From assembly GCA_025930495.1 (NCBI GenBank), contig JAICOU010000010.1, positions 1 to 36,511 of the forward strand: DNA of 36,511 nt. Reading direction: 5' to 3'. The notes below the pieces were generated by a model that was not told the DNA's origin, did not search any database, and saw only the letters and a list, made by a program, of their open reading frames with translations. A program made the translations under genes and the position numbers. This DNA is from Nitrososphaeraceae archaeon (GTDB taxonomy: Archaea; Thermoproteota; Nitrososphaeria; Nitrososphaerales; Nitrosopumilaceae). The stretch's first letter is position 1; each line of letters begins with the position of its first letter. This document shows, one piece after another, positions 8,601 to 15,327 of the stretch.

Positions 8601-11600
8601 CTATTCTATTTTATCATAGGGTTCAATAGGATCTTTTGTTGTTTGATTATCTTTGAGCCATTCCAGAGTCTTTACAAAAGAATCGGCTAGCTCAATAGTT
8701 GTAAGAACAGGAATTCCTAATTCAAGGGATTTTCTTCTAATTTGATATTCATCCTCAAGCATTCCAACATATTTTTCAAGGGTTGAAGTACTGGGAATAT
8801 TTATGATAAAGTCTATCTTTCGTTCATAAAGCAAATCTGCAATGTTAGGTTTTCTTGTAGGTTCTGAAATTTTGTGAACAACTTCAACATCACCAATCTT
8901 TTCTTCAAAAAATTCTGCAGTATGCTCAGTTGCAAGTATTTTAAATCCAAGATTCTTCAATCGTGCAATTGGTTGCAGTAACTTTTCTTTATTTTGAGAA
9001 CCACCAACTGTAACAAGGGCCGTACCTGTACTTGGAAGAGTGTATCCTGCAGAAGTAAGTCCTTTAGCTAACGCATCGTAAAAGCTTGTACCAAAACAGG
9101 CAACTTCTCCAGTAGACTGCATTTCTACGCCTAGTCTAATATCTGCCCCCTCGAGTTGCATAAATGAGAATTGAGGTACCTTGATTCCAAAATTGTGAAT
9201 TTTTTGCCATTTGTTTTCAGGCAATTTAGGCAGAGGCTTACCCAAGATTGCCTTTGCTGCTAGTGAGATAAGATTTGTCTTGACAAGTTTTGATACAAAA
9301 GGCATGGAACGAGATGCTCTAATGTTTAATTCAATTACATATACATGATCATTATGGATTAAAAATTGCAAATTAAACGGTCCTTTGACATTAAACGTTT
9401 TTGCAATCTTTGTAGAGTATTCAGTTATGGTTTCAATAGTTTTGTTGTTGAGTCGCCATGGTGGAATGCACATCATAGCATCACCAGAGTGAACACCTGC
9501 ACTTTCAATGTGTTCAACTATAGCTCCAATTATGACATCAGTTCCATTACTAACTCCATCAACATCAACTTCTAATGAATTTAGCATGAATTTTGAGATG
9601 ACAACTGGGTGATCAGGAGATACATCTGTTGCTTCTTTGACATATTTTTTTAATTCATCTTGAGACCATACAACTTTCATTGCAGCACCAGATAATACAT
9701 AGGAAGGTCTGACAATTACAGGAAAGCCTACATTTTGTGCAAAACTTTTTGCCTCAGCAATATTTGAAAATGCTTGCCATCGTGGCTGTTGAATATGCAA
9801 TTTATCTAATTCAGCACTGAATTTGGAACGATCTTCTGCTCTATCAACATCAGATGCAGCAGTGCCCAATATGTTAATACCATTTTTTGCAAGACCTAAT
9901 GTTAAATTATTTGCGGTTTGACCTCCAACACAAGTAACTATACCTTTTGGATTTTCAAATTCTGCAATATCTAAAATCCTTTCCAAAGTTAATTCTTCAA
10001 AGTATAGTCTGCTACAAATATCATAATCAGTAGAAACTGTTTCAGGATTACAGTTTACAACTGAAACATTTTTTTCGCCATTTTCTTGCAAACCCCAAAC
10101 CATATTCACAGTACCCCAATCAAATTCCACGCTGCTGCCAATACGATAAGGGCCTGCACCAAGTACAATGACTCCTTTGTCATCAGATGTGATTTCAATA
10201 TCATTTTGATTACCACCATATGTTAGATAGAGGTAGTTGGTAACTGCAGGCCATTCAGCTGCTAAAGTATCAATTTGCTTTACCGAAGGCAAAACTCCTG
10301 CTTTTTTACGTATTTCACGTATTTCTTCAGCAGATTTGTCTTTTGCACGAGCGATTTGCTTATCAGAAAATCCCATCTTTTTTGATTCCCAAAGTAAAGA
10401 GGTGGTGAGTTGTTCTTGTTTTAATTTGGATTCAACATCAACAATATTTTTGATCTTTTCAATAAACCAAGGATCAATTGCAGAAAGTTTATAGATTTTC
10501 TCAACTGAGATTCCCATCTTAAGTGCGGCAGCCACATAATACAAAATTAAATCATCAGGATGAGAGAGATGTTCTTCTATTTGCTCTTCATCATAGGATT
10601 CCATAGTTGTACGGTTTAGAACAAGACCATCATTTCCAATGTCAAGCATCCGTATTGATTTTTGCAATGATTCCTCAAAACTTCTTCCAATTGCCATAAC
10701 TTCACCAACTGATTTCATGGTAGGACCAAGTTTTCGTTTTACAAGATCAAATTTTGCAAAATCCCATCTAGGATGCTTACATACAATATAATCCAAAGAA
10801 GGCTCAAAACAAGCAGTAGTAGTTTTTGTAATTCTGTTTTCTAGTTCCGGTAATGTATATCCCAAACCAATTTTTGCAGACATGTATGCAAGTGGATAAC
10901 CAGTTGCTTTGCTTGCAAGTGCAGAAGAACGTGACAACCTAGGATTAATTTCGATTGCAACGTATCTATCAGAATCAGGATCTAATCCATATTGTATATT
11001 GCACTCACCTACAATTCCAACATGTTTTGTTGCACGTAAAGCTGCAGAACGGAGCATATGATATTCATGATTATCAATTGTTTGGGAAGGTGCAACGACA
11101 ATATTATCACCAGTGTGAACTTTCATGGAAAGAACATTTTCCATATTACAAACAATCACATTATTTCCGTCATAATCCTGCATTACCTCATATTCTATTT
11201 GCTTCCAATGTCCAATGTATTCCTCAATTAAGACTTGACCCACAAGACTTGCTCTTAGTCCTCGTTCAACAATTTCATGTAATTCAATTTCATTGTAAGC
11301 AACTCCACCACCCTTACCGCCAAGGGTATACGCTACTCGAATAATTACAGGGTATCCTAATTCTTGAGCGATTTCTTTTGCGTCTATAAAATTTGTAACC
11401 GTTCTACTTTTCAGAATCGGAACATTGCATTGATTCATAGAGTCTTTGAAGAGTTGTCGATCCTCAGTTCTTTGAATTCCAGGAATTTGTGTGCCTAAAA
11501 CATGTACGCCATACTTTTCAAGTATGCCTGCCTGTGCAAGATTAACACCACAATTCAAAGCAGTTTGACCTCCATATGCTAACATTATCCCATCAGGCCT

Positions 11601-11864
11601 CTCCTTTTCGATAATAGATTCTACATACTCTACATTCACAGGTAACAGATACACTTTATTTGCAAATCTAGTATCTGTCTGAATTGTTGCAATGTTTGGA
11701 TTGATTAAGATACTTTTCAGTCCATCTTCGTGTATTGCTTTGAGGCATTGGCTTCCGGAGTAGTCAAATTGACGGTCGTTTTAGCGACTTTCGCCGGCTT
11801 CTCCGATTTTTATTGCCCCACTACCAAGTACAAGAATTTTTTTTATCGATTCATTCTTCGGCAG
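8601..11864 (-). CDS. carB: carbamoyl-phosphate synthase large subunit, frame interrupted at codon 28
   Basis: CarB makes carbamoyl phosphate from bicarbonate, ATP and CarA-derived ammonia, for pyrimidines and arginine. The uninterrupted frame runs from GTG 11654 to 8601 (1017 residues): the rest of the first ATP-grasp half, an oligomerisation region, the second half with LGAGPYRIGSSVEFDW, and the C-terminal MGS-like allosteric domain. The missing N-terminus lies directly upstream in the same frame. From a CTG at 11864 it reads LPKNESIKKILVLGSGAIKI then GEAGE, then two codons and a TAA (11781-11783). Removing 21 bases (11769-11789) restores GEAGE-FDYSGSQ and a 1080-residue protein of normal length. 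GGAGGAAGGT before the CTG is a good ribosome-binding site, and the start overlaps carA by 14 bases. As given, the gene is either defective, misassembled, or rescued at RNA level. Confidence 0.85.
11769..11789 (-). other. 21-base in-frame insertion with stop codon inside carB
   Basis: Read on the minus strand, these 21 bases fall exactly between GAA (Glu25) and TTT (the Phe of FDYSG). They encode S-R-stop-N-D-R-Q. The duplicated second half of the same protein (residues GSSVEFDW) has no such insertion at the equivalent place, which fixes the borders to within two bases. The first four bases (AGTC) can pair with GACT lying three bases beyond the insertion. Inside it, GTCG and CGAC can form a 4-bp stem around a 6-base loop. 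It is not a duplication of the flanks. Confidence 0.8.
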
Positions 11865-13023
11865 ATTTACCTTCCTCCATAAGGTGTTTGAATTCTTCAA
11901 AGACGAATTTACAATCATAAGGTCCTGGTGCAGCTTCGGGATGAAACTGGACAGCAATACAATTTTGTTTTTTGTGTTTTATTCCTTCAACTGTTTTATC
12001 GTCTGCGTTTGTAAACCATAAATTAAATTCAGATGCATTCAGAGATTCAGGAGTTATTCCATAGCCATGATTCTGACTTGTGACATAAACTTGATTATTT
12101 TCTAAATTAACACATGGTTTGTTTTGTCCTCTATGACCATATTTTAATTTGTAAGTTTGAGTGTTTCCAGCAAGACCAATGATTTGTGCACCTAAACAAA
12201 TTCCAAGTGTTGGAATATTATGTTCAATTAGTTTTCGTGCAGTTTCAATAGTATCAGGACATTTTTGAGGATCACCTGGGCCATTGCTAATTACAACACC
12301 TTTTGGATGATATGACATAATTTTTTCAAAAGATGTGTTCCAAGGTAATTTTATTACTTTGTACCCCAGGTCACGAATATTTCTCAGTATTGCATTTTTT
12401 GTACCAGTATCAATCACAACGACAGATTTTTCTTCAGATCCATACATCACTTCTTGTTTGGTAGACACTGTATCCATGAATTGTTCAGAATTGTAATTAG
12501 GTGCAGATGCAAGTTGTTTTTTTATTTCATCTACATTAATTTCAGTGTCAGATACTACTAAAGCAGCCATCATCACTCCTCCTGTACGAAGATTTTTTGT
12601 TAGTGCTCTTGTATCAATTCCAGAGATTCCAGGAATTTTTTCATTATATAACCACTCATCAAGAGTCATTGATAAATTCCAGTGACTGGCAGTTAAAGAC
12701 AACTCATGAACAACTAGTCCTCTTAGTTGAATTTTGTTAGATTCAAAGAACTTTGGGATTCCATCTTGATCTTTAATTGATGAATCTGGTACACCATAGT
12801 TTCCTACAAGAGGATAGGTAAGTGTAAGAATTTGCCCACTGTATGACGGATCAGTAAGAGTCTCAGGATACCCCACCATTCCTGTATTAAAGACAATTTC
12901 ACCAAAAACAGTTGTAGAATAACCAAAACCCATTCCATCAAGGACAGTCCCATCATCAAGAATCAGCTTCCCAAACTTGTTTGCGTGGATTGATTTCTTT
13001 GTAGTAATTGTGACCCTCGACAA
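11851..13023 (-). CDS. carA: carbamoyl-phosphate synthase small subunit (glutamine amidotransferase)
   Basis: A 390-residue protein with the CarA-specific N-terminal domain (FGYSTTVFGEIVFNTGMVGYPET, residues about 33-55) and a C-terminal class I glutaminase domain. The catalytic triad is visible: Cys276 in LGICLGAQ, and His361 and Glu363 in VQFHPEAAP; VISNGPGDP is the oxyanion-loop region. It hydrolyses glutamine and channels ammonia to CarB. The start is TTG at 13023. It sits 62 bases downstream of cdvC and overlaps the inferred carB start, so carA and carB are coupled. Confidence 0.93.
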   Translation of the reverse strand: MSRVTITTKKSIHANKFGKLILDDGTVLDGMGFGYSTTVFGEIVFNTGMVGYPETLTDPSYSGQILTLTYPLVGNYGVPDSSIKDQDGIPKFFESNKIQLRGLVVHELSLTASHWNLSMTLDEWLYNEKIPGISGIDTRALTKNLRTGGVMMAALVVSDTEINVDEIKKQLASAPNYNSEQFMDTVSTKQEVMYGSEEKSVVVIDTGTKNAILRNIRDLGYKVIKLPWNTSFEKIMSYHPKGVVISNGPGDPQKCPDTIETARKLIEHNIPTLGICLGAQIIGLAGNTQTYKLKYGHRGQNKPCVNLENNQVYVTSQNHGYGITPESLNASEFNLWFTNADDKTVEGIKHKKQNCIAVQFHPEAAPGPYDCKFVFEEFKHLMEEGKSAEE

Positions 13024-13085: not shown

Positions 13086-14279
13086 TTAAAGTGCTCGGAA
13101 TTCTTCACTCCACTTGTGATAGGCACGGATCATCTCAAGTGAAACGCTTGGTTTTCTTCTTGCCATGATTTCCTTAAAGTCAGATGTGTTAAGTTCGCGT
13201 GGCTGTATTGGTGCTTCACCAGATACTGGCTCATGGTAATCAGGGGCATTGAAGATTTCATGAACTGCTTTAATTTGTGCTGCTTGACAGACGTCTTTGA
13301 TATCGCTTGCACTATAACCATCAAATAATTTTGCAAGTTCTGTTATGTTAACTCGAATATCTTTTCTTAATGGAGCAGTATATTGCTCAAATAATTTTTC
13401 TCTTGCTTCTTGAGTTGGAAGTGAAACATAGATTCTTTTTTGGAATCTTCTAAGAAAAGGCCAATCAAGACTCCATGGTTTGTTAGTAGCGCCAATAACA
13501 TAAAGCATCAAATCCTTACCTTTACCATTAACACCATCCATTTCTGTCAAGAACTGATTTTTCGTTCTCACCTCTCCTCCAACTTCACTATTTCTAGAGC
13601 CTAAAAGAGAATCAACTTCATCTACAAAAAGAATTACAGGCTTTCCTTCTTTTTCAGCATATTTTCTTGCCATAGCAAATAATTTTGAAACATTTTTTTC
13701 AGCCTCGCCTAACCATTTACTCATCATGGATGCAGCATCTACATTAATGAAATATCCGTCCATTTCATTTGCAGTTGCAGCTGCCAGCATAGTTTTTCCA
13801 GTTCCTGGTGGACCATAAAGCAGCATTCCTTTTGGCCAGCCCAAAGGAAACAGATCAGGTCTTTTGGTAGGATAAACTATTGATTCTCGTAATGCGTTCT
13901 TTGCATCATCTAACCCAATTACTTCACTCCAACTGATATTGGGTTTTTCTTTCATTACAAGATCTTCAAAATCATTTTCATCAGTTTGTCTTTGTACAGA
14001 AGCTTGTTGTTCTTTAGGGGAAGCATTTGGATCCACCGCAGGCTCTACTCCACGGGATTCTTGAAGTGCTGTTATTCTATTATGATAAGAGTTACATCTG
14101 TCTTTGTAAATAGGATTAAGTTTGCTTGTAGGATAAAGTTGCAGTAGCTTTACAAGTGAATCAATTGCGCGCTGATAATGCGTAATGGCCATGCCTCGTG
14201 CGCCTTGAGAATCAAACTTGATTGCCTCTGAAGCATACTTGCTTGCATTGTTTTCTAATTCTTGCGGGGCTAAACTCAT
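13086..14279 (-). CDS. cdvC: CdvC, Vps4-like AAA ATPase of archaeal ESCRT cell division
   Basis: A 397-residue protein with an N-terminal MIT domain (about 5-75, three helices including YASEAIKFDSQGARGMAITH), a linker, and one AAA module: Walker A GPPGTGKT (156-163), Walker B ILFVDEVDS (about 216-224), sensor ATNKPW and the arginine-finger region WPFLRRFQKRI. In Sulfolobus and thaumarchaea the Vps4-like CdvC remodels or disassembles ESCRT-III (CdvB) filaments at the division site; the MIT domain binds their C-terminal motifs. It follows an ESCRT-III-like gene and an unknown gene on the same strand with a 5-base gap, supporting a division operon, and carAB follows it. Confidence 0.92.
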   Translation of the reverse strand: MSLAPQELENNASKYASEAIKFDSQGARGMAITHYQRAIDSLVKLLQLYPTSKLNPIYKDRCNSYHNRITALQESRGVEPAVDPNASPKEQQASVQRQTDENDFEDLVMKEKPNISWSEVIGLDDAKNALRESIVYPTKRPDLFPLGWPKGMLLYGPPGTGKTMLAAATANEMDGYFINVDAASMMSKWLGEAEKNVSKLFAMARKYAEKEGKPVILFVDEVDSLLGSRNSEVGGEVRTKNQFLTEMDGVNGKGKDLMLYVIGATNKPWSLDWPFLRRFQKRIYVSLPTQEAREKLFEQYTAPLRKDIRVNITELAKLFDGYSASDIKDVCQAAQIKAVHEIFNAPDYHEPVSGEAPIQPRELNTSDFKEIMARRKPSVSLEMIRAYHKWSEEFRAL

Positions 14280-14284
14280 CTATA

Positions 14285-14782
14285 TCACTTGCACAGTACT
14301 TGAGAATTTTGTTGGTATTCAGTGGGGTTAATCGCTGTAGTAAAATTGGTTAAATTAATTGAACCAGTTTTAGATTCATCCCCAGCGGATTCATCTAGAT
14401 ATGATTTTTTAAGGTCAGATTTTTCGGAAATTTTAGAATGCATATTTTTGACTTTATTGATAGAATCCTCAGCAGATAAGATTAATTCAGAGATTTCATC
14501 ATCAATACATTCTATTGATTGCGCAGATTCAGTGATAATTGAAACAAAATGTTGTAAAATTAAGCGTGTTTCTTTTTTATCCTCATATTTGAAGAGCATA
14601 AAATTAGCCAATCCCACAATTTTATTTATGTCCTGCAATTCCTCCAGAGTTAATTTATCAATTTTAACATCGGGGGCATTAGAGGCAGATAATTTTTTTT
14701 CGATTTTTGCAGATAATGATTGGAGATGGTCTATATCAGTTGCAAAACCATGTTTAGAGCTAATAAAATTCAAGTATTGCAT
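14285..14782 (-). CDS. unknown helical protein in the cdv cluster
   Basis: A 165-residue protein I do not recognise. It is almost entirely helical up to about residue 125 (LQSLSAKIEKKLSAS, LTLEELQDINKIVGLANFML, HFVSIITESAQSIECIDD), then has a polar, probably disordered tail. There is no signal peptide, membrane segment or zinc motif. The start ATG at 14782 overlaps the end of the ESCRT-III-like gene by 13 bases, and cdvC follows five bases after its stop, so the three are probably translated together. It may be a division accessory factor or a highly diverged ESCRT-III-like protein; both are inferences from position and helix content. Confidence 0.65.
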   Translation of the reverse strand: MQYLNFISSKHGFATDIDHLQSLSAKIEKKLSASNAPDVKIDKLTLEELQDINKIVGLANFMLFKYEDKKETRLILQHFVSIITESAQSIECIDDEISELILSAEDSINKVKNMHSKISEKSDLKKSYLDESAGDESKTGSINLTNFTTAINPTEYQQNSQVLCK

Positions 14783-15327
14783 GCTTTAGAAAAAGCAAGA
14801 TTAGGGTACTGCTTACTTATTTTAGAGTCTACCATCAATTTTACTTTATTTAGTATTGATGATGATTCAGCATTGGATTGGTTAAAATCAAATCTAGCCT
14901 CGGTAAGAATTGCAGAATCCAAGATAATACTACCTAAATGTACGGATAACTCAGAAAGGTTTTGACTGCAGGCAGGAAGTAATCTAAAAAGCTGAGCACT
15001 CACAGTCCTCATCATAGGGATTGTCAAAGGTAAAAGTTCAGGAATGCTGTTTATTCCAGAGATAGAATTCATTTTCTTTTGGATTTGAGAGAGAATTTCT
15101 AATGAAAAGATAATAGTTTTCTCAAAATCTAGTGCTTTAACATAAGTATGATCATCATCTAATTCTAAGAAATTACGGTTTAATTTTTTTAGTTCAGTTT
15201 TTTTTGTTTTTAAAATATCCACAATACTGTTTAGTAAATTATTTGAATATTCAAGTCTTGGAACAATAGTGACAGTTTGAGATACATTTACACATTCTGT
15301 TTGAGTCAATTTTGGATTACACATCAT
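14770..15327 (-). CDS. ESCRT-III-like (CdvB-family) protein
   Basis: A 185-residue helical protein resembling the Snf7/CdvB family. A long N-terminal helical hairpin (residues about 22-95) is followed by SIPELLPLTIPMMRTV and NLSELSVHLGSIILDS, which match the position and pattern of the conserved CdvB region before the last helices. It ends with a helix ending KISKQYPNLAF, like the usual end of archaeal CdvB proteins. These proteins polymerise at the division site. No winged-helix CdvA-binding tail is present, so it looks like a short CdvB paralogue. Two ATGs (15327, 15324) are possible. It heads the minus-strand run to carB. Confidence 0.65.
   Translation of the reverse strand: MMCNPKLTQTECVNVSQTVTIVPRLEYSNNLLNSIVDILKTKKTELKKLNRNFLELDDDHTYVKALDFEKTIIFSLEILSQIQKKMNSISGINSIPELLPLTIPMMRTVSAQLFRLLPACSQNLSELSVHLGSIILDSAILTEARFDFNQSNAESSSILNKVKLMVDSKISKQYPNLAFSKACNT

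Follow-up and report, generated by a model that had tools for sequence, protein, structure and literature searches.

A 21-nucleotide insert in carB of ammonia-oxidizing archaea as a predicted bulge-helix-bulge pre-mRNA intron

The carA and carB genes of contig JAICOU010000010.1 lie next to each other on the minus strand of the window, a term used here for the whole analysed stretch of 36,511 nucleotides (nt). The upstream gene, carA (11851..13023), is recognized as the small subunit of carbamoyl-phosphate synthase (NCBIfam); its frame extends beyond the apparent start of carB, ends in a TGA at 11853..11851 and overlaps carB by 14 nt. The long downstream frame matches the CPSase II large subunit (NCBIfam, 1389 bits), and this match begins at profile position 26. 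The minus-strand frame at 8601-11852 translates as ESIKKILVLGSGAIKIGEAGE-SR*NDRQ-FDYSGSQ..., in which the asterisk is a TAA that represents the sole stop before the end of the gene; taken up to the apparent start (8601-11864), the carB frame reads ...IKKILVLGSGAIKIGEAGE, SR*NDRQ and then FDYSGSQ... through its natural stop. carB is split at 11789..11769 by 21 nt containing this in-frame TAA, precisely at the GEAGE/FDYSG boundary. Exon 1 (11790..11864) comprises 25 codons from an apparent CTG start (11864..11862) to GAA and encodes (L/M)PKNESIKKILVLGSGAIKIGEAGE. The putative intron with its UAA is delimited to 11769..11789 by the read-through translation and by insert-free orthologues, and exon 2 runs from FDYSG to the stop codon (8601..11768; NCBIfam match and translation). 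As E and F are adjacent in insert-free orthologues (e.g. L019, L020 and L022), exactly 21 bases are extra. A first-pass annotation of this DNA had described a stop-bearing 21-base insertion inside GE/FDYSG and had held that E and F should be adjacent, and both statements are borne out by the translation and these orthologues. The insert sequence is present in one copy in the 1.4-Mb genome (99.18% complete) when up to 3 mismatches are allowed, and the genome's only match for a second structural copy, at E 3.07, is taken as chance. The nearest named records are Nitrosarchaeum assemblies (99% identical). Upstream of carA, Cdv-like cell-division genes are found below the NCBIfam cut-offs (13086-15327), namely a CdvC-like AAA ATPase (13086-14279) and a CdvB1/B2-like protein (14770-15327).

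Starts of carB were gathered through a protein search of 61 genomes (the window's own and relatives) and from public genome contigs (80 of 319 loci kept). With L001 and L002 excluded as repeats of the window, 140 carB loci are available, of which 138 are parsed at the junction; L098 is unparsed, and L126, which carries a variant motif outside the parsed set, proved insert-free on later inspection (as L202). In this alignment of related carB starts, a comparison that the first-pass annotation had suggested, the junction is occupied at exactly the same site in 80 of 138 parsed loci and lacks an insert in 58, and the lengths found are 0 or 20-30 nt and nothing else. Such recurrence at one position goes far beyond what chance would give. 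Since the parsed loci include some genomes present in both collections, insert properties are counted over the 58 distinct insert-bearing junction sequences. The insert is present in all 18 searched genomes of the genus (L003-L018, L115, L123) and, with divergent sequence, in relatives from other families, so that several families of the order carry it. In a phylum-wide draw of 398 genomes, 162 were matched by a covariance model: among the matches listed, at least 47 are of insert length (65-71 nt), all inside the order, and the remainder are of 45 nt, corresponding to carB without the insert, except for one match of 62 nt. This match (G289), the sole candidate outside the order among those listed, was rejected, as it is not carB.

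Several individual records deserve mention in their own right. One draft genome contains, on a separate contig, a second carB-like gene with a 20-nt insert and 77% identity (G004:C35:450-780, L141); this contig is probably foreign to the bin. The Nitrosopumilus-type carB of L049, whose record is titled Candidatus Anammoxibacter (Planctomycetota), suggests a misbinned contig. Other breaks in carB were also considered as further introns and rejected: a second in-frame TGA at the position of the relatives' arginine codon (ICD-R-LYF) in G023 (L032) affects a single codon, the frame being intact elsewhere, and is either real or a sequencing error, and a mid-gene frameshift in the single-contig genome G018 (L211) looks like a sequencing error or lesion; both are unlike the insert. 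In G006, carB lies in three pieces on one contig.

Every copy of the insert brings a stop or breaks the frame. The 58 distinct junctions contain inserts of 20 nt (n=9), 21 nt (n=33), 22 nt (n=10) and 23 nt (n=1), and longer ones of 25 nt (n=1), 26 nt (n=3) and 30 nt (n=1); an in-frame stop lies inside the insert in 48 of them, and none has an insert that is both stop-free and a multiple of 3. Exon 1 nevertheless retains the signature of a coding sequence. Among 51 insert-bearing rows (918 codon cells), 181 departures from the commonest codon are synonymous and 78 non-synonymous, compared with 215 and 17, respectively, among 44 insert-free rows (792 codon cells). The higher share of non-synonymous departures with the insert (78/918 vs 17/792) counts against the intron reading, but the synonymous excess indicates that exon 1 is still coding and that its protein sequence is maintained in insert-bearing genes. 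Since the insert would ruin the protein if retained, and exon 1 is conserved, the product must be rejoined at the level of either RNA or translation.

Constraint on the RNA itself is visible in the synonymous codons beside the junction. Within the ammonia-oxidizer clade, 66 insert-bearing and 44 insert-free carB rows that encode the same junction amino acids were compared. With the insert, glycine is encoded by GGC in 66/66 rows (2/44 without), another glycine by GGA in 66/66 (7/44), aspartate by GAC in 64/66 (1/44), tyrosine by TAC in 66/66 (11/44) and serine by TCC in 60/66 (3/44). In the rest of the same genes, usage with and without the insert is 0.30 vs 0.20 for GAC and 0.33 vs 0.28 for TAC. 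The comparison leaves out 19 deep rows, 4 of which bear the insert; these include L201 (= L125), which has GGT for GGA, and L205 (= L129), which has GGT for GGC. Codon-by-codon profiles place the strongest differences at the pairing region described below and further differences at a distal helix. As the sequences are related, these counts are not independent trials; the contrast is large nonetheless. The flanking synonymous codons are near-fixed only where the insert is present, which indicates that insert and flanks are constrained at the RNA level.

The nature of this constraint emerges from folding the alignment. RNAalifold, unaided, pairs exon 1 with exon 2 in an outer helix, folds a hairpin that is wholly intronic and joins GGCG of exon 1 to CGUC, CGCC or CGCU of the intron in a helix of 4 bp; the 5' splice site is left in a 3-nt bulge of the form A(A/G)A, and the 3' splice site in an unpaired stretch starting A-N-U. 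On the minus strand of the window, RNAalifold and pair counts position the outer helix arms at CGGAG.AG (11798..11805) and, in exon 2, CU.CUCCG (11756..11763), and the intron-internal hairpin GUCG-CUAAAA-CGAC with its covarying stem at 11775..11788. The central 4-bp helix, for which the junction alignment is an additional basis, joins GGCG of exon 1 (11792..11795) to CGUC of the intron (11771..11774). It is flanked by the 5' bulge AA^A (11789..11791), with predicted cleavage between 11790 and 11789, and the 3' bulge AA^U (11768..11770), with predicted cleavage between 11769 and 11768. Cleavage between the second and third bulge base is the rule for archaeal splice sites (PMC2738675), and the cuts predicted in this manner would yield GEAGE-FDYSG, as in the insert-free orthologues. 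When the central helix is placed by the protein-defined junction, 4/4 pairs form in 53 of 58 distinct junctions and 3/4 in the other 5, while the inner intron stem measures 4-7 bp and reaches at least 4 bp in 58/58. As modelled, the inserts fit the archaeal bulge-helix-bulge (BHB; hBHBh') splice motif, with a 3-nt bulge, a 4-bp helix, a 3-nt bulge and inner and outer helices.

Across 44 rows, 98.8% of the 660 cells of this structure are paired, compared to 95.6% in shuffles, and double changes occur in 22 cells as opposed to 3.2 in shuffles. Most of the double changes fall in the intron hairpin and one in the exon:intron helix, namely a compensatory C-G to U-A change in L129 that is the sole full compensation of this helix, in which G-C to G-U changes are otherwise frequent. 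In 4/44 rows the first central position holds G-A and fails to pair, and further pair types are no more numerous than in shuffles (12 vs 11.0; 127 of 500 shuffles as high). Sliding the structure by one column reduces pairing to 34-41%, and shifts of -3 and +3 give 61.5% and 56.1%. In the outer helix, 99.0% of cells are paired; it contains one A.A mismatch, is separated from the core by a small internal loop and has three broken pairs in L125. The covariation supports the BHB structure, mostly within the intron hairpin. A distal exon-exon helix with the arms GGGGCA (11814..11819) and UGCCUC (11742..11747; pairing comparison and fold) shows mean pairing of 0.93 with the insert and 0.71 without it (key pair, 0.91 vs 0.22) and also appears when the window's own sequence is folded. 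Folded singly with short flanks, the window sequence places the BHB structure 1.0 kcal/mol above its minimum-energy fold, a variant in which the central pairs are shifted, and gives the BHB central pairs a probability of about 0.24; z-scores of single sequences are modest (-0.64 to -2.35 for six sequences; -2.65, -1.45 and -2.05 for three longer ones). As the single-sequence fold does not favour the BHB, the structural case rests on comparison and not on one fold.

These results revise the pairing scheme of the first-pass annotation, which had offered a mini-intron as one of several options and had suggested folding the region as a splicing-endonuclease substrate. Such a fold recovers the BHB on the alignment, though not as the minimum-energy fold of the window's own sequence with short flanks. 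The proposed UCGGAG/CUCCGG pairing is real and corresponds to the outer exon-exon helix found by RNAalifold and the pair count. In contrast, AGUC/GACU was rejected as the core, since it is broken in insert-bearing relatives with AGCC, such as L031, L091, L112 and L135; the core is instead the pairing of exon 1 GGCG with intron CGUC. A central helix between the 5' end of the intron and exon 2 was likewise rejected, its pairing being inconsistent. The view that the spacing is not canonical does not hold for either splice site, because the core GGCG:CGUC (CGCC, CGCU) sits between two 3-nt bulges; only the outer helix is offset, by the small internal loop.

Genes for the required enzymes are present in the host genome, which encodes two tRNA_int_endo (PF01974) splicing endonucleases and one RtcB ligase. 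Since two endonuclease genes are present, the enzyme is probably of the alpha-beta type, which is assigned to Thaumarchaeota (PMC4090602) and tolerates a broader range of motifs (PMC7714728). In the proposed pathway, the carA-carB transcript would fold such that outer helices join exon 1 to exon 2 and GGCG, at the end of exon 1, pairs with CGUC at the end of the intron, thereby placing each splice site in a 3-nt bulge. The splicing endonuclease would cut each bulge between its second and third base, and RtcB would ligate the exons to give ...GEAGE-FDYSG... and full-length CarB. Conservation, BHB structure, covariation, disruption of the frame and the enzyme genes together strongly support the mini-intron option, and we infer with high confidence that these 21 nt form a pre-mRNA intron of the kind found in archaeal tRNA and rRNA, and that in the cell it is cleaved out and the exons are ligated. 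A pattern scan for the exon junction returned 0 matches; it covered viral contigs only and is hence uninformative on carB splicing.

An alternative that would also restore the protein, at the level of translation, is bypassing, in which the ribosome hops from GAA to TTT across the insert of an uncut mRNA. Translational bypass elements such as those of phage T4 gene 60 and the mitochondrial byps resemble the carB insert in being short in-gene inserts with a stop and a hairpin, and most carB copies indeed place a stop and a stem-loop just past the would-be take-off codon. At known bypass sites, however, the take-off and landing codons match, whereas the final triplet of the insert is identical to the take-off codon in 0/58 distinct junctions. 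The conserved pairing moreover links exon 1 to the insert and exon 1 to exon 2 in BHB geometry, a feature that sets carB apart from bypass elements and makes bypassing very unlikely.

That carB is simply broken, as a lesion or pseudogene or through use of the internal start GTG 11654 to give a shortened CarB, might be read from the stop in a single genome and from an ORF list that starts the long frame at this GTG. Retention of the insert across many genera, the protein kept in exon 1 (181 synonymous vs 78 non-synonymous departures) and the RNA-level constraint on insert and flanks all argue against it, and a shortened product would leave exon 1 without purpose. A pseudogene would be expected to lose constraint; exon 1 instead shows its synonymous excess and near-fixed junction codons. 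Nor was a second carB found in the 99.18%-complete genome, where the only other match covers residues 104-337 at 26% identity; the first-pass annotation had listed a true lesion among its options, and conservation among relatives refutes it. A broken gene is accordingly a highly improbable reading. Equally hard to credit is a regulatory stop and hairpin, i.e. an attenuator that is sometimes read through or frameshifted and never removed. The insert does follow codon 25 of the downstream gene in a biosynthetic pair and forms a hairpin, mostly with a stop, but the exon 1:intron pairing would have no role in such a device, and lengths of 20, 21, 22, 23, 25, 26 and 30 nt set the exons in differing relative frames, so that no single readthrough or frameshift event could serve. 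The artefact that the first-pass annotation also considered, conceivable for a draft assembly of 120 contigs, has a practically negligible chance and is refuted by many records under separate titles whose inserts are identical or covary, and by the single-contig genomes G009, G015, G018 and G033, which carry such inserts too.

The history of the insert was followed on a FastTree tree of 129 exon-2 proteins, which has some long branches and is uncertain at several deep ones. The tree requires a minimum of 10 changes, each a gain or a loss, and well-supported branches force 6 of these. Because the insert-free carB genes of Nitrosopumilus and Nitrosopelagicus nest among insert-bearing ones, repeated loss is suggested, that is, an old intron lost several times; parsimony alone cannot tell gain from loss. 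The parsed insert-free genes contain no remnant of the insert, as might be expected if spliced RNA had served as the template for loss.

Presence of the insert coincides with an unusual start of carB. The apparent start of the window's gene is a CTG within the end of carA (window 11851-11864, minus strand), and CTG occupies the start position in 45 of the 65 insert-bearing rows that extend this far, as it does in a single insert-free row. Some of the other insert-bearing genes carry ATA, ATT, GCG or TCG at this position, and one genus includes three insert-bearing genomes with ATG (G043, G363 and G390). Among rows with enough upstream sequence, ATG, GTG and TTG are absent near the start in 55/62 insert-bearing genes, whereas a standard start is present in 54/57 insert-free genes, and the carA frame passes the carB start in 54/55 insert-bearing vs 6/47 insert-free genes. 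Over 6 independent pairs on well-supported branches, insert and start type change the same way in 3.2, the opposite way in 0.1 and without difference in 2.7; with a median p of 0.25, these contrasts are too few to prove a link, and a functional tie between intron and start codon is suggestive only. One possible but rather doubtful interpretation is that the carB intron is a splicing-translation switch that has evolved together with a start kept deliberately weak and coupled to carA (CTG, ATA, ATT, GCG or TCG). With such a start, ribosomes would stay off exon 1 and would not unwind the splice site before endonuclease cleavage, such that CarB output would depend on splicing; after loss of the intron, carB would tend to regain a standard start and carA would shorten. 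The pattern of starts and overlaps would also be explained by common descent or by a single recombination tract that replaced the junction as a whole.

Several known systems can be compared with the predicted carB intron. The cbf5 introns of Crenarchaeota (Desulfurococcales and Sulfolobales) measure 16-44 bp and have been lost in some lineages (PMC2738675). The cbf5 pre-mRNA intron is likewise cut by the splicing endonuclease, and its splicing is demonstrated where that of carB is predicted; the carB insert lies at another site, in another gene and another phylum. In carB, the 3-4-3 arrangement of bulges and central helix is canonical, whereas most of the newly described cbf5 motifs are called unconventional in PMC2738675. 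In the window's group, 36/41 genomes yield a cbf5 match that exceeds the family cut-off, and none of the matches listed has a stop inside cbf5 (stops only, frameshifts aside). The 46-nt BHB intron of HVO_1309 in Haloferax volcanii is also located in an mRNA and cut by the splicing endonuclease, but it lies in the 5' untranslated leader and is therefore not needed for a reading frame (PMC7714728). Besides this intron, the same study, from 2020, names cbf5 as the only archaeal mRNA for which a BHB intron had been reported. For an archaeal virus, PMC2738675 mentions putative introns of 12 bp in protein-coding genes, with no splicing shown; these are similarly very short but, in contrast to every carB insert, keep the frame. 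Archaeal tRNA introns of the 37/38 type (11-129 nt) share with carB the 4-bp exon 1:intron helix, the two 3-nt splice-site bulges and a potentially very short length (PMC4090602); carB differs in its mRNA context and in the absence of a tRNA body. The conserved catalytic core of group I and group II introns is absent from these inserts of 20-30 nt, and no Rfam family matches in the window at gathering scores.

Among archaeal protein genes, introns are extremely rare, and no report of a carB intron was found in the literature searched, which lies mostly outside subscription journals. With splicing predicted from comparative sequence data, carB would be the second coding-sequence case of an archaeal mRNA intron, after cbf5. 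If true, coding introns in archaea would not be a one-off, as this one would belong to another phylum and to an enzyme central to the synthesis of pyrimidines and arginine. Such carB genes will probably be given a wrong start, or be dropped, by gene finders, and the short protein from GTG 11654 would be an error of this kind. Should the switch described above exist, it would represent regulated tRNA-type splicing of a metabolic mRNA in ammonia-oxidizing archaea. The carB family, with its 58 distinct junctions and several apparent losses, offers a deep natural series for studying the origin, persistence and loss of an archaeal mRNA intron and is also suited to asking how splicing copes with coupled transcription and translation.
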